Part shown: one piece after another, positions 9,015-18,579 of the stretch | Position numbering within the stretch: the stretch's first letter is position 1 | How the letters are laid out: the number at the start of each line of letters is the position of its first letter | Source of the DNA: a virus | Virus record (IMG/VR): IMGVR_UViG_3300037587_000401 | Location: 1-24,496 of that record | Reading direction: 5' to 3' (one strand) | Length of the DNA stretch: 24,496 nt | Translations under genes and position numbers: made by a program | Notes under the pieces: model-generated | Told to the model about the DNA's origin: nothing | Seen by the model: the letters and a program-made list of their open reading frames with translations, nothing else | The model's database searches: none

Positions 9015-9175
9015 AAGACTACATAAAAGAAAACCACAACGGCAGCAAGCGAGCATTTGCCAAATTCCTTGGTACATCCAGAACGCAAGTCTATCGTTAC
9101 ATCAAAATGGGTTGTTTCTGGTATGACGGCGATGTGTGCCAGCGCAAAACGAATATGAATAAGGGCAAATCATGA
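9005..9175 (+). CDS. Small helix-turn-helix protein (Cro-like)
   Basis: 56 residues: MDLEDYIKENHNGSKRAFAK followed by FLGTSRTQVYRYIKMGCFWY and a basic tail. KRAFAKFLGTSRTQVYRYI is a helix-turn-helix, and the sequence resembles small phage proteins with the pattern YIKENxGGxKxAFA...QVxRWI. AAGGTGG precedes the ATG. Coupled to the deformylase gene by an ATGA overlap. Confidence 0.65.
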   Translation: MDLEDYIKENHNGSKRAFAKFLGTSRTQVYRYIKMGCFWYDGDVCQRKTNMNKGKS

Positions 9176-9591
9176 TCGAACTAAAGAAAGGCAACTTTGC
9201 AACGCTTCATCAAAGGGCTATCGACGTTGAATTTGGCAGCGATGTGAAAGAGCTTATTTCTGAAATGTGGAAAATCATGGCAGATAATAACGGCATCGGG
9301 CTTGCTGCTAATCAAGTTGGCGTATTAAAGCGGGTGATAGTTGTCCACACTAACGGCTTTTCTACGGCCATTATCAACCCTGTAATAACAAAGCTATCCG
9401 GTAAGGTAAAGAATAGCAAAGAAGGCTGCTTATCGTTCCCAGGCAAGCTATCAACAATGAAGCGAGATAATATTGTTGTGGTCGAAGGTTTCGATGAAAA
9501 CTGGAATCCGATTAAAAAGAAAGTTCGCGCCCTATCTGCTTTTTGCGTTCAGCATGAGATAGACCATTTAAACGGTATTAACATTAATTAA
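9172..9591 (+). CDS. def: Peptide deformylase
   Basis: 139 residues. It removes the formyl group from the N-terminal methionine of new proteins, using a metal held by Cys and two His. All three family motifs are present: GIGLAANQVG (41-50), EGCLS (84-88, Cys86) and HEIDH (128-132, His128, His132, catalytic Glu129). The protein stops nine residues after the last motif, so it lacks the C-terminal extension of bacterial enzymes (about 165-170 residues), as in other phage deformylases. The ATG overlaps the previous stop. Probably active, since every ligand is intact. Confidence 0.95.
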   Translation: MIELKKGNFATLHQRAIDVEFGSDVKELISEMWKIMADNNGIGLAANQVGVLKRVIVVHTNGFSTAIINPVITKLSGKVKNSKEGCLSFPGKLSTMKRDNIVVVEGFDENWNPIKKKVRALSAFCVQHEIDHLNGININ

Positions 9592-9908: not shown

Positions 9909-10463
9909 ATGAAAAAATTATTATTAATATCAATACTTTCGGTCGCTGTTCTTTCTGGGTGTGGGCAGGTAACTCAAAACGACAAGGACTCTCGCGCATC
10001 AGAGCAGCAGCAATCGCAGTACGCAAAGTCTCAGCCACTACCAGTGTATAACTGGAGCCTTGAGCGCCACATGGTCATTGAGCTTTACAATGCAAGAAAC
10101 TTAAGGGCTGCAACTCATTCAGTTTGGCGTAGCGACTTAGGGTCGATAGAAGGTGATTGCGCATCAATTGGCTTTGGCATTCCTTACGACACTAGCCTAA
10201 CCAACCCCTTATCCATAGAGGCTAAAAGGTTTGGTGGTCTAGGTCGGATGGTTGACGTTGTAGAACAAGCAGAGCCCAATGGTATTTTTGCATCGAAGAA
10301 TACCGCAGCAACATGGGTTATGTGTGCTGGCGACAATGGAGCTATGGAGCCAGTTTATGTCGAAACAAAGGTCACCGTATACCCTTACCCTGTTAAAGTT
10401 GATTACGACAAGAACAGAGTCATTAAGGCTGGCAAGTCAACCGTAACAATAAGCGTTAATTAA
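9909..10463 (+). CDS. Phage lipoprotein
   Basis: 184 residues starting MKKLLLISILSVAVLSGCGQ; the lipobox LSGC gives a lipidated Cys18. A polar glutamine-rich linker (about 20-45) leads to a globular periplasmic domain with YDTSLTNPLSIEAKRFG and FASKNTAATWVMCAGDNG. Phage lipoproteins with an SIGFGIPYDTSLTNPL-like block are frequent in siphophage and T7-like genomes; their function is not established, with exclusion of competing phages one proposal. Cys residues at GDCASIG and VMCAGD may form a disulfide. Confidence 0.75.
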   Translation: MKKLLLISILSVAVLSGCGQVTQNDKDSRASEQQQSQYAKSQPLPVYNWSLERHMVIELYNARNLRAATHSVWRSDLGSIEGDCASIGFGIPYDTSLTNPLSIEAKRFGGLGRMVDVVEQAEPNGIFASKNTAATWVMCAGDNGAMEPVYVETKVTVYPYPVKVDYDKNRVIKAGKSTVTISVN

Positions 10464-10472
10464 ATAAAACCC

Positions 10473-10498
10473 CACCGGCTTTGATTAATCGGCCGGTG
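10473..10498 (+). terminator. Intergenic hairpin, 7-bp GC stem
   Basis: CACCGGC (10473-10479) pairs with GCCGGTG (10492-10498). The loop TTTGATTAATCG belongs to the recurring loop type. No T-run follows and the next ribosome site is 4 bases on, so it may modulate rather than stop transcription. Confidence 0.45.
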
Positions 10499-10514
10499 CA
10501 ATAAGGAAATGACG

Positions 10515-11063
10515 ATGAACGAAATACCGAAGTTTTTAATTGAAATGTCTGAGCAGATGAATAAAGAAAACAACCGATGCACAGCCGATCCAGTATGGCA
10601 AGTTAGATGCAAAAGGACAAGAATAACAAGCGAAGACCAAACGGATAGGTTCCAATTAATCGATCACGATGAAGGGTATCTAGTTGCTGACAGTCACATA
10701 GAGCAGGAGTTTAACGAGCAAATAGTTGAACACCTTGATTGCGATCCAGATGACCTACCGGTAACTTTCGAGAATTGGGTAAACTCCGAAGTGGTGGATG
10801 GCCTAACTGGTCAGGAAAAAATTGATTACTTCATAGAAAATTTTGATTGTGAGATTGACGACCTTGAAGGATTTAGGCTGATATGGGTTGAGGAGTACGA
10901 AGATATCATAATGGGCGCGTTCCTCACTGAGCAAGATGCTAATTGGTTCATCAATCGAAAACAGCACGACTACCCCAAGCTATACACCTACGTCACGTCG
11001 ATGTATTTTAGCGTGCAAATGAAAGAGCTTAGAAATTGGATTAAAAGTTTAACCGTGGTATAA
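10515..11063 (+). CDS. Conserved-type acidic phage protein
   Basis: 182 residues, strongly acidic. It has WQVRCKRTRI near the N-terminus and, near the C-terminus, ANWFINRKQHDYPKLYTYVT followed by SMYFSVQMKELRNWI, a pattern (aYI..N.H....LR.YV.S.....E....R) shared by a common phage protein of unknown role. The ATG at 10515 has AAGGAA six bases upstream; the ATG at 10509 abuts it. Its last codons hold the promoter of the small RNA candidate. Confidence 0.65.
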   Translation: MNEIPKFLIEMSEQMNKENNRCTADPVWQVRCKRTRITSEDQTDRFQLIDHDEGYLVADSHIEQEFNEQIVEHLDCDPDDLPVTFENWVNSEVVDGLTGQEKIDYFIENFDCEIDDLEGFRLIWVEEYEDIIMGAFLTEQDANWFINRKQHDYPKLYTYVTSMYFSVQMKELRNWIKSLTVV

Positions 11064-11064
11064 T
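11036..11064 (+). promoter_or_regulatory. Promoter of the small RNA candidate
   Basis: TTGGAT (11036-11041), a 17-base spacer and TGG-TATAAT (11059-11064; a perfect -10 with extended TGn) overlap the end of the upstream gene. The start is expected near 11071. No reading frame begins for about 380 bases downstream, so the product is presumably RNA. Confidence 0.65.
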
Positions 11065-11070
11065 TGTTTT

Positions 11071-11173
11071 GTTGATTGGCGTCGGAACCAAAAGACACTA
11101 GATAGGGTTTAGTTAGTAACTGTGATGATTCAACATCATCATTCCGACCAGTTACTAGACTAAGCCTTTTTTA
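11071..11173 (+). ncRNA. Candidate pseudoknotted small RNA
   Basis: About 100 nucleotides between a consensus extended -10 promoter and a T6 terminator, with no reading frame. A 17-bp helix (11106-11122 with 11149-11166, one bulged G at 11158 and one G-T pair) continues on its 5' side without a gap into a 7-bp inner stem (11123-11129 with 11135-11141, loop TCAAC). This leaves a 3'-side bulge of exactly seven bases, TTCCGAC (11142-11148). GTCGGAA at 11081-11087 is its perfect complement, giving either a pseudoknot or a competing structure during transcription. I cannot name a matching RNA family. Confidence 0.6.
11106..11173 (+). terminator. Long-stem rho-independent terminator
   Basis: Stem GGGTTTAGT-TAGTAACTG against CAGTTACTA-G-ACTAAGCC, immediately followed by TTTTTTA (11167-11173). 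It closes the small RNA and also blocks read-through from the upstream operon. Confidence 0.8.
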
Positions 11174-11453
11174 TTGCCTCAGTTTTACGTCAAGATTCAT
11201 CCTAGCTACACACTTCATCAACAAAACGTGATTATTCATGCAGAATAAAAATAGCACTTTGCACACCTTTACATAAGACAGCGTTTAAGGCCGCGTTTCA
11301 GCGCAATTAAGGGTCGAGTTTGGGCAGCTCAATGGATTAAAATGCTAGCTGATATCTGTATTATGTATTTGTATTAGAAGTATCGTTAAGGCTCTATCCC
11401 TTTAATAACGGTCTTATTGATACTATTCTTTAAATTAAATAGAGGTTTAAGTA
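11174..11453 (+). other. Gene-free AT-rich stretch
   Basis: 280 bases without a credible gene on either strand (the best minus-strand frame, 22 codons, lacks a ribosome site). It contains a tandem TGTATTA-TGTATT-TGTATTAG cluster and a CAGCT/AGCTG inverted pair around 11334-11360. A promoter for the gene at 11454 is expected near its right end, but no good -35/-10 pair was found. Confidence 0.4.
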
Positions 11454-11714: not shown

Positions 11715-12191
11715 ATGAAAGATCTAAGCGAGGCCGGAAAGATATTTTACTTTGATGACGGCCTCTTAAAGAGATACGACAAAAAGCCTGTCAGACTTAG
11801 TGTGGTTTCAGGTTATCTATGCGTGAGCCTGTTAAGAAAGAAGATCGCCATACACAGGCTTATTTTTTGGCTAACTAATGGTGATTTTAGTGGAGAGATT
11901 GATCACAGGGATAGAAACAAGTTCAATAACTCTCCGTCAAATCTTCGCCTTGCTAGCAGGGGTGATAACTGTAGGAACGTAGGAATTCCAAAGACAAATA
12001 CTAGTGGATATAAAGGGGTAACTTGGCACAAAGGGGCTAAAAAGTGGGTAGCTCAAATAAGATTCAATAAGAAAAGATTTTATTTGGGTTTGTTTGACGA
12101 TGCTTTAGACGCGGCCAAGGCTCATGATAAAAAATGTATTGAGCTTCACGGTGAGTTTGCGCTAACTAACAAAATGCTAATGCTTTACTAA
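11715..12191 (+). CDS. HNH homing-type endonuclease with AP2 domain
   Basis: 158 residues. The HNH part (about 45-88) has AIHRLIFWLTNG (His47), EIDHRDRNKFNNSPSNLRLA (Asp63, His64, Asn71/Asn76) and NCRNVG. An AP2 DNA-binding domain follows (about 98-150): SGYKGVTWHKGAKKWVAQIR then YLGLFDDALDAAKAHDKKCI. HNH-AP2 proteins are mobile homing endonucleases common in phages. The ribosome site is weak. It starts after an 80-base gap and is followed by a second AP2-bearing gene, as if the two were inserted together. Confidence 0.88.
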   Translation: MKDLSEAGKIFYFDDGLLKRYDKKPVRLSVVSGYLCVSLLRKKIAIHRLIFWLTNGDFSGEIDHRDRNKFNNSPSNLRLASRGDNCRNVGIPKTNTSGYKGVTWHKGAKKWVAQIRFNKKRFYLGLFDDALDAAKAHDKKCIELHGEFALTNKMLMLY

Positions 12192-12263: not shown

Positions 12264-12881
12264 ATGTTTATTGAGCAGCTAGCAAATAAAATGTCATTAG
12301 CAAAACGAGGATTAACTTACGGAATTGGGGTTAATGACTCTGATTATTTAACTAGCTATACGGTGAGCAGCAAGGAGCTTCGTTGTCCGTATTATACGGC
12401 GTGGTGCAACATGCTAAGGCGTTGTTACTATGAATCGTTCCTTGTTAAAAATCCAACATATAAAGGCTGTGCCGTTTGTGATGAGTGGCTTATTTTTAGT
12501 AATTTTAAGTCATGGGTTAAAACCCAAAGCTGGGAAGGGAAACATTTAGATAAAGACATCTTAGCTCAAGGCAATAAAATATATTCGCCGGAATTTTGCA
12601 TTTTTGTACCTACAGCCATAAATGTTTTATTTGTTGATCGTAGATCGAAGCGAGGAAAGTACCCGATTGGAGTTACAAGGATTAGAGGCAAATATAGATC
12701 ACGATGCCGATCAAATGGGAAGTACGAATATCTAGGGCTCTTTGATGCGCAAGAGCAGGCGTTTGATAAGTATAAAATATTTAAACTTAACGTAATAAAA
12801 GAAGCGGCGATGAAGCAGCCAGGGCCTTTAAGAAGCGCAATGCTTAACTACAAGATAGAGCCTTATCCGAAAATGGCTTAA
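12264..12881 (+). CDS. AP2-containing endonuclease-like phage protein
   Basis: 205 residues. The N-terminal two thirds match a common phage protein pattern: YGIGVNDSDY, CPYYTAWCNMLRRCY (41-55), NPTYKGCAVCDEWLIFSNFK, EGKHLDKDILAQGNKIYSPE and CIFVPTAINVLF. The C-terminal part (about 147-180) has YPIGVTRIRGKYRSRC and YEYLGLFDAQEQAFDKYK, a degenerate AP2 fold like that of its neighbour. Members are often labelled HNH endonuclease, but no clean HNH triad is visible, so nuclease activity is unproven. AAGGGGAG precedes the ATG. Confidence 0.65.
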   Translation: MFIEQLANKMSLAKRGLTYGIGVNDSDYLTSYTVSSKELRCPYYTAWCNMLRRCYYESFLVKNPTYKGCAVCDEWLIFSNFKSWVKTQSWEGKHLDKDILAQGNKIYSPEFCIFVPTAINVLFVDRRSKRGKYPIGVTRIRGKYRSRCRSNGKYEYLGLFDAQEQAFDKYKIFKLNVIKEAAMKQPGPLRSAMLNYKIEPYPKMA

Positions 12882-17325: not shown

Positions 17326-18579
17326 ATGAATATTTACTTGGTTGGTGGGGCTGTTCGCGATGAGCTTCTAGGGCTAAAGCCTAAAGATTTAGATTACGTT
17401 GTTGTTGGCAGTACGCCCGAGGATATGTTGTCAAAAGGATTTAAACAGGTCGGGTCTAACTTCCCTGTATTTCTACACCCTGAGTCTGGCGATGAATATG
17501 CGCTAGCTAGAACAGAAGAAAGCACAGGTGATAAATACCAAGATTTCGATTGTTATTTTGGCAAAGACGTAACTCTTGTGGATGATTTATTCCGTAGAGA
17601 TTTAACTATTAACGCCATAGCTAAAAATATAGAAACTGGTGAGTATATAGATCCATTTCAAGGAATCTCAGATATTAACGATAAAATCATCAGGCATGTA
17701 TCGGATGCATTTAATGATGATCCTGTTCGAGTTCTTAGGGCGTTTAGGTTTCAATCTACACTAAATGGATACTGGTCTATTGATGGTCAGACTATGCTTA
17801 AAATTGAAAGTATGGCTAGTCAAGGCGATCTGGATAGCTTAACGCCAGAAAGGGTATGGAAGGAAATGGAGAAGGCGCTAGGCGGGCACAGAGCTGGTTT
17901 GTTTTTTACTAACCTGTCGGAGCTTGGTTTATTCCCTGAGATAGATGACCTATGGGTTACCCCTCAAAACAAGGATCATCACCCAGAAGGTAACGTTGGC
18001 ATACATACAAGTATGGTTGTTAATTACGCTGCAAATAACTTCGGGCAATACGTGGCTTTTGCTGGTCTGTGTCATGACTTTGGAAAGCCGATTTCTCACG
18101 GCGAAACTAGCAACGCTTTGCAGCATGAGATAAAAGGGCTTGATGTGATTAGGTCTTTTTGTGAGAAATGGAAGGTGCCTAATAGTTATCGCGATCTTGC
18201 ATTGATTACATGTGAATATCATACAAAGGTTCACGGGTGTTTAGGTAGAGGAGCAAACAAAGCCATGCGCCCAAAATCAATAATGAACTTATTTACGGCA
18301 ACCAATGCGATAGATAAGAAGGCAAGGTTTTATCATTTCCTAGAAGCTTGCGAGGCTGACGCTAAAGGGCGCGGCGGCGATTACCCCAATAAGCATTACC
18401 CGCAAAAAGATTATATGTGGGATTGCATAATGGCAGTTAAGCGAGTTGATACAAAAGAAATATCAATCGCCATGCTTGAAAAAGGTAAGTCAGGAATTGA
18501 TATTGGAGAAGCCATAAGAGTTGCCAGAATTGACGCCATAAGAAAGGTTTATAATGAATACACTAACGCGAAAGATTAA
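17326..18579 (+). CDS. cca: CCA-adding tRNA nucleotidyltransferase with HD domain
   Basis: 417 residues, full length for the bacterial type with a C-terminal HD domain. It adds or repairs the 3' CCA of tRNAs using CTP and ATP without a template. Blocks: LVGGAVRD (5-12), DLDYVVVG (21-28, catalytic Asp21/Asp23), FRRDLTINAIA (89-99), DDPVRVLRAFRF (131-142), then an HD phosphohydrolase with IHTSMVV (His227) and CHDFGKP (His250/Asp251) and a HEIKGL helix. All polymerase residues are intact. GAGGA precedes the ATG. Own promoter with repeat operators. No tRNA gene is visible in the window, so the substrates are presumably host tRNAs or phage tRNAs elsewhere. Confidence 0.95.
   Translation: MNIYLVGGAVRDELLGLKPKDLDYVVVGSTPEDMLSKGFKQVGSNFPVFLHPESGDEYALARTEESTGDKYQDFDCYFGKDVTLVDDLFRRDLTINAIAKNIETGEYIDPFQGISDINDKIIRHVSDAFNDDPVRVLRAFRFQSTLNGYWSIDGQTMLKIESMASQGDLDSLTPERVWKEMEKALGGHRAGLFFTNLSELGLFPEIDDLWVTPQNKDHHPEGNVGIHTSMVVNYAANNFGQYVAFAGLCHDFGKPISHGETSNALQHEIKGLDVIRSFCEKWKVPNSYRDLALITCEYHTKVHGCLGRGANKAMRPKSIMNLFTATNAIDKKARFYHFLEACEADAKGRGGDYPNKHYPQKDYMWDCIMAVKRVDTKEISIAMLEKGKSGIDIGEAIRVARIDAIRKVYNEYTNAKD

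Follow-up and report, generated by a model that had tools for sequence, protein, structure and literature searches.

An RNA family from uncultured viruses whose hypervariable hairpin loop retains complementarity to a terminator-hairpin bulge

The question raised by this locus is whether a gene-free stretch of about 100 bases (11071..11172), situated in IMG/VR virus record IMGVR_UViG_3300037587_000401 (24,496 bases, the whole of which is referred to as the window), specifies a genuine RNA and, if so, whether two seven-base segments within it pair with each other and what such an RNA might do. A first-pass annotation had described a promoter-RNA-terminator unit here that it could not match to a known family, and had suggested that a seven-base bulge of the terminator stem, TTCCGAC, forms a pseudoknot with its exact complement GTCGGAA in the 5' region. 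We found the elements of this unit, i.e. the extended -10 element, the ~102-nt RNA, the terminator hairpin and the T6 tract, where the annotation had placed them (Table 1), and likewise both seven-base segments, each of which occurs only once in the entire window. The stem length of 17 bp that it gave is close, but the outer helix has ~18-19 bp and contains one unpaired base near 11157. The annotation did not mention that GTCGGAA constitutes the loop of a small hairpin; with GTCGGAA in a hairpin loop and TTCCGAC in a bulge, the proposed interaction is therefore a loop-bulge pairing.

Table 1. Predicted features of the RNA locus in the window
Feature	Position	Strand	Basis or remark
-35-like hexamer TTGGAT	11036..11041	+	weak consensus match (3/6); 17-nt spacer
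Extended -10 element TGGTATAAT	11056..11064	+	TG 11056-11057, TATAAT 11059-11064; the TAA stop of the upstream ORF falls within it
Predicted ~102-nt RNA	11071..11172	+	limits predicted without transcript data, from the -10 element (start) and from T6 (end)
5' hairpin	11070..11097	+	TGTT 11070-11073/GACA 11094-11097, GA/AA internal loop, TTGG 11076-11079/CCAA 11088-11091, loop CGTCGGAA
Pseudoknot strand 1, GTCGGAA (hairpin loop)	11081..11087	+	covaries with 11142-11148
Outer terminator helix, 5' strand	11104..11122	+	fold and structure-based pair counts
Inner hairpin TGATGAT-TCAAC-ATCATCA	11123..11141	+	compensatory changes in L215
Pseudoknot strand 2, TTCCGAC (bulge)	11142..11148	+	fold and covariation
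Outer terminator helix, 3' strand	11149..11166	+	fold and structure-based pair counts
T6 tract of the terminator	11167..11172	+	seen in the sequence; T run is part of the search pattern
281-nt non-coding spacer ahead of the next ORF	11173..11453	+	a few compensatory changes in the window's own spacer type

Folding of positions 11070-11180 gives -35.6 kcal/mol (z -4.9), which none of 200 shuffled sequences equalled, and leaves unpaired the bulge that separates the 7-bp inner helix from the longer outer one. The bases of both seven-base segments are 87-100% unpaired in the pseudoknot-free ensemble, and loop and bulge would lie 54 nt apart in one molecule. A stable hairpin followed by T6, as an intrinsic terminator would need, is present; that it ends transcription is inferred. 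A simple promoter/terminator scan of the window listed neither the promoter nor the terminator of the RNA, because the -35 hexamer matches the consensus poorly and the terminator helix is interrupted, and the hits of such scanning at this locus were not above chance. Shuffling 30 nt of the 5' end produced GTCGGAA with p ~0.003 for the window alone, which is modest by itself. The case therefore rests on homologues.

Consistent with the view that no known family is involved, Rfam 15 returned no family match to the window RNA at either gathering or relaxed thresholds. BLAST found no relative of the region among phage and plasmid records, nor of the L281 unit among phages. An initial pattern scan restricted to the two 7-mers gave at least 120 matches and was uninformative, and a scan of genome contigs with the exact loop and bulge gave 19 matches, apparently due to chance, none of which had the full architecture when examined by a motif scan. 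The upstream ORF used as bait retrieved nothing, and the terminase retrieved 65 relatives, of which those with records searched lacked the RNA. Two relatives in IMG/VR (L215 and L221) were detected with a 15-base pattern covering the 5' hairpin; they are 96-97% identical to the window across 150 bases beginning at the -10 element, their upstream DNA is unrelated, and the inner hairpin of L215 differs on both sides. The whole records of these relatives each contain a second copy that is merely 74-75% identical. Most further copies came from the pattern TTGTTGATTGG + CTTTTTTA, in which loop, bulge and helices were left free, and one additional copy came from a covariance model, R1, that includes the 5' hairpin, the terminator hairpin with its bulge and the T run, and no pseudoknot. 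Counting the window, the resulting set holds 16 copies on 13 contigs, 15 of these copies being from 12 other viral contigs, and the near-full-length contigs G041, G042 and G051 carry two copies each.

It should be noted that this set has limitations. Its 16 copies are mutually related and stem from a single collection. Most of them were used to build R1, so their scores of 63-126 bits are matches by construction, the copy at L380 being an independent find. The first strand of the 5' hairpin and the T run were part of the search patterns, and their conservation is thus partly a consequence of selection by the search. All members come from uncultured viruses whose host is unknown; the closest protein matches are to phages of Vibrio, Pseudoalteromonas, Salicola, Acinetobacter, Rhizobium and other Proteobacteria. 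Against 369 Gammaproteobacteria genomes, R1 gave only weak matches (<31 bits), of which the inspected ones proved to be ordinary terminators or chance similarities, and a pattern scan of these genomes gave only chance-looking matches; seven cultured phage records contained no convincing member according to R1. A gap near the connector genes of a Salicola phage was considered and rejected: it holds other repeats and not this ~100-nt RNA. We found no description of this loop-bulge RNA in the open-access literature, which does not prove that none exists. Unrelated terminators picked by R1 (L392, L393, L446 and L447) often continue with TTTTTTATTGCC or similar, as do most family copies; perhaps this is a common terminator tail in Gammaproteobacteria, although R1 itself selects for such a tail.

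The 16 copies contain 11 different loop/bulge pairs: GTCGGAA:TTCCGAC (window, G041, G042), GCGGG:CCCGC (G041, G049, G055), TGAAGC:GCTTCA (G042), TTCGAGC:GCTCGAA and GTCGAAT:ATTCGAC (both in G051), GTGGAAT:ATTCCAC (G056), GTGGTTT:AAACCAC (G047), GTGGATT:AATCCAC (G052), TCCGACC:GGTCGGA (G054), TGGGGA:TCCCCA (G050, G053) and GTCGAAG:CTTCGAC (G048). The complementarity of each loop to its own bulge is exact over 5-8 nt (mostly 7) in 11 out of 11 distinct members, and 94 of 110 cross-combinations have just 3-4 complementary nt; the corresponding duplexes average -8.2 kcal/mol for self versus -2.1 kcal/mol for cross pairing. Given only the alignment and no structure, RNAalifold picked the pseudoknot helix (columns 13-19/83-89), all seven pairs of which show changes on both sides, with 91% of their cells paired. 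For the whole named structure, 88% of the cells are paired (79% in shuffles), 17 pairs have double changes (10 in shuffles) and 48 cells have double changes (17 in shuffles); none of 500 shuffles reached any of these values. Support collapses on shifting the partner by a single base. The copy at L257 is displaced by one base in the automatic alignment, and some of its pairs consequently seem broken; inspected directly, it has a 5-bp loop-bulge pairing. Kinship or the search pattern is an unlikely source of the covariation, because the pattern contained neither loop nor bulge and swapped loops mostly lose their fit. None of 18 unrelated loci with the same 5'-hairpin pattern has the architecture, and one has a chance 7-base complement, without hairpin and T run. 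The terminator hairpin contains 38 G-U versus 14 A-C cells, which is the bias that an RNA from the + strand would give.

The first-pass annotation had proposed a covariance-model search for compensatory changes in homologues, and independent variation of the two segments would have refuted it. The opposite was found, namely that loop and bulge change together, which supports GTCGGAA as a real pseudoknot partner. As far as sequence comparison can establish it, we are highly confident that loop and bulge pair within, or between, copies of one RNA, and the comparison shows that this pairing is under selection and its sequence is not. Covariation alone cannot tell intramolecular from intermolecular pairing. 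Judged by these homologues, the ~100-base stretch is a real RNA family without a match in Rfam and of unknown function; what is new is the family itself and its anatomy, in which a hypervariable loop is kept complementary to the bulge of a terminator hairpin.

What such an RNA would do is less clear. The reading that we prefer, and to which we give even chances in the absence of transcript, probing and binding data, is that of a new phage small-RNA family, self-terminating and compact, that shows its nearly invariant 5' hairpin to a partner. It is preferred because there is no competing fold, the core is autonomous, the letters of the loop are free, and no antisense target is found in the contigs tested. 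The consensus fold obtained with RNAalifold contains no competing antiterminator-like pairing. An extended -10 element (TGN plus a TATAAT-like hexamer) precedes the RNA at a near-constant distance in 15 of the 16 copies, so that the promoter claimed for the window is conserved, and the -35 hexamers vary. Every copy has a strong hairpin and a T run (for most, the T run was in the search pattern), and G041, G049 and G055 share an identical ~100-nt core whose flanking sequences differ on both sides. In a comparison of five close members, 0-4 of the 7 positions (mostly 3-4) vary in the pseudoknot strands and 0-4 of 25 in the outer helix (5' strand), while the stems of the 5' hairpin do not vary. 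We read this as weak constraint on the letters of the pairing strands and strong constraint on their complementarity.

According to this small-RNA reading, RNA polymerase would start at ~11071 from the extended -10 promoter, and the 5' hairpin would fold first. Its loop is inferred to dock in the bulge once the inner hairpin and the bulge have emerged, the outer helix would close alongside, its 3' strand running on directly from the pseudoknot strand, and T6 would bring transcription to an end. The outcome would be a compact RNA of ~100 nt whose 5' hairpin, with the GA/AA internal loop, is exposed to a partner (a host or phage protein being the most likely candidate), and only read-through transcripts would reach the following leader and gene. 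The identity of the partner and the biological effect are unknown. A stand-alone small RNA leaves one observation unexplained, namely a spacer of 260-390 nt, which favours a role in cis.

A cis role in termination is a close second because this spacer is recurrent. The RNA would then head a downstream leader as a conditional terminator or antitermination element, the loop-bulge pairing tuning passage past T6; we hold this to be possible rather than probable. A gene-free stretch of 260-390 nt follows nearly all copies, a feature that stands out because these genomes are compact and their remaining gaps mostly short; after the second copy in G041, the next co-oriented ORF is more distant and small opposite ORFs lie in between. 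The copies are mostly located among genes of the same orientation and usually share their strand with the gene that follows. The window-type position is upstream of HNH and early/middle genes; copies in G041, G042 and G051 lie between the major head protein and head-tail connector genes, that in G048 immediately before a connector gene, and the second copy in G051 and the copy in G055 upstream of a replication O-like gene. The recurrent spacer, the strand of the following gene and the positions before early/middle genes or between major head protein and connector genes would suit a leader, as would compensatory changes in one spacer type. The spacers comprise several sequence types, of which types 2 and 8 have hairpins preserved by compensatory substitution, and they may represent a second RNA domain or a leader. 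However, we found no conserved pairing that would compete, the pseudoknot can coexist with the terminator and does not exclude it, the same RNA core occurs with different spacers, and no motif common to spacers of different types rises above shuffled sequences; as a set, the spacers fold no better than shuffled sequence. An attenuator would require two mutually exclusive conserved folds, and only one compatible fold is seen, which does not exclude a protein-dependent switch. The roles suggested earlier, i.e. small RNA, decoy or conditional terminator, are not separated, and none is proven.

Two further readings concern the changing letters. The loop and bulge together could be a self-matching identity tag under diversifying selection, so that pairing is restricted to the same copy, either within the RNA (termination) or between RNAs (assemblies); we regard this as rather unlikely, and diversifying selection on loop and bulge is possible and not shown. 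Distinctly unlikely, in our opinion, is homotypic kissing, in which the loop of one molecule pairs with the bulge of a second molecule of that RNA to give dimers or larger forms, and the changing letters prevent mixing. Copies in one genome indeed cross-pair poorly (-3.6/-4.4, -0.7/-0.3 and -4.0/-3.9 versus self values of -6.3 to -11.4 kcal/mol), and the pairing strands change faster than the adjoining helices. There is also a precedent in the ROOL and GOLLD phage RNAs, of which pairings first found by covariation proved to be intermolecular (PMC12286853). However, the short distance between loop and bulge in one molecule implies a high local concentration, the length of the bulge fits the loop, and there are no association data.

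The loop could also be the seed of a base-pairing regulatory RNA, with the bulge as its built-in lid. Its 7-nt length and the U tail recall Hfq-type small RNAs, which have such features, but the loop sequence is not conserved even among nearly identical RNAs, and its longest complement elsewhere in those of its own contigs that were tested is no longer than that of shuffled seeds (host targets were outside this test). We consider this reading very unlikely. A CsrA/RsmA sponge was rejected, as a conserved GGA in the loop is absent (TTCGAGC, GTCGAAT and TGAAGC lack it). Finally, the view that this is merely an intrinsic terminator whose 7-base match arose by coincidence, or else an inverted repeat acting at the DNA level, deserves almost no credence: the chance estimate from the window alone left room for it, but exact complements with different letters in all distinct members and the G-U pairs on the transcribed strand speak against it, and the homologues, as sequences, already refute the coincidence.

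Several known systems resemble this RNA in part. Like ordinary small RNAs of phages that end at intrinsic terminators, it has its own sigma-70-type promoter, is short, and ends in a terminator hairpin with a U tail; the difference is that a bulge of the hairpin covaries with the loop of a 5' hairpin. The put antitermination RNA of phage HK022 is also short and structured, lies near the head of phage transcripts and is present in more than one copy per genome, but it consists of two stem-loops and is not known to have a loop-bulge pseudoknot with a terminator (sequences were not compared). The packaging pRNA of phi29 (~120 nt) has two loops that pair, their letters being free as long as complementarity is kept; this pairing is intermolecular and serves the packaging ATPase. 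Unlike the RNA described here, for which Rfam has no match, pRNA is not known to have a bulge in a terminator hairpin. ToxI, a type III antitoxin RNA, is pseudoknotted as well, but it consists of ~36-nt tandem repeats beside a toxin gene, whereas no repeats were noticed by eye here and the neighbours vary between copies. A phage-borne RNA mimic of ToxI that escapes ToxIN is reported (PMC3475682). ROOL and GOLLD are likewise phage-encoded, of unknown function and endowed with covarying tertiary loop pairings (PMC12286853), but those RNAs extend over several hundred nt, assemble into cages and differ in secondary structure, whereas ours has ~100 nt and a terminator-type end; their covariance models in Rfam gave no match to the window RNA.

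The family adds to phages of uncultured bacteria an RNA that is not listed in Rfam, with an anatomy that we could match to no known family: a terminator-hairpin bulge locks the loop of a 5' hairpin, and their letters change fast but together. The RNA is short and easily synthesised, and its single 7-bp tertiary helix can be broken and restored, which makes its possible contribution to termination, stability or assembly accessible to experiment. It also carries a warning that terminators annotated by simple scanners can belong to larger folds.

The distribution of the RNA does not follow that of the terminase. G041 and G042 share the RNA with the window at 96-97% identity, yet have no terminase similar to that of the window, and phages whose terminases are 76-82% identical to it lack the RNA where searched. 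This is strong mosaicism. Inverted repeats around TTTGATTAAT (CCGGC...GCCGG, CACCGC...GCGGTGG) are present at 10460-10518 of the window, at 3790-3842 of L215 and at 6705-6764 of L221; they also precede some copies in G041, G042 and G051, and in some copies overlap the RNA promoter, and they could be the terminator of the preceding gene or an operator. Shortly past the RNA and its spacer, the window contains two HNH endonuclease genes (11715-12191 and 12264-12881), one with an AP2 domain, and HNH genes recur near several copies. In G054, a tRNA gene (L373, 1405-1478) ends just upstream of the RNA promoter, and the window contains genes for a peptide deformylase (9172-9591) and for the CCA-adding enzyme tRNA nucleotidyltransferase (17326-18579).
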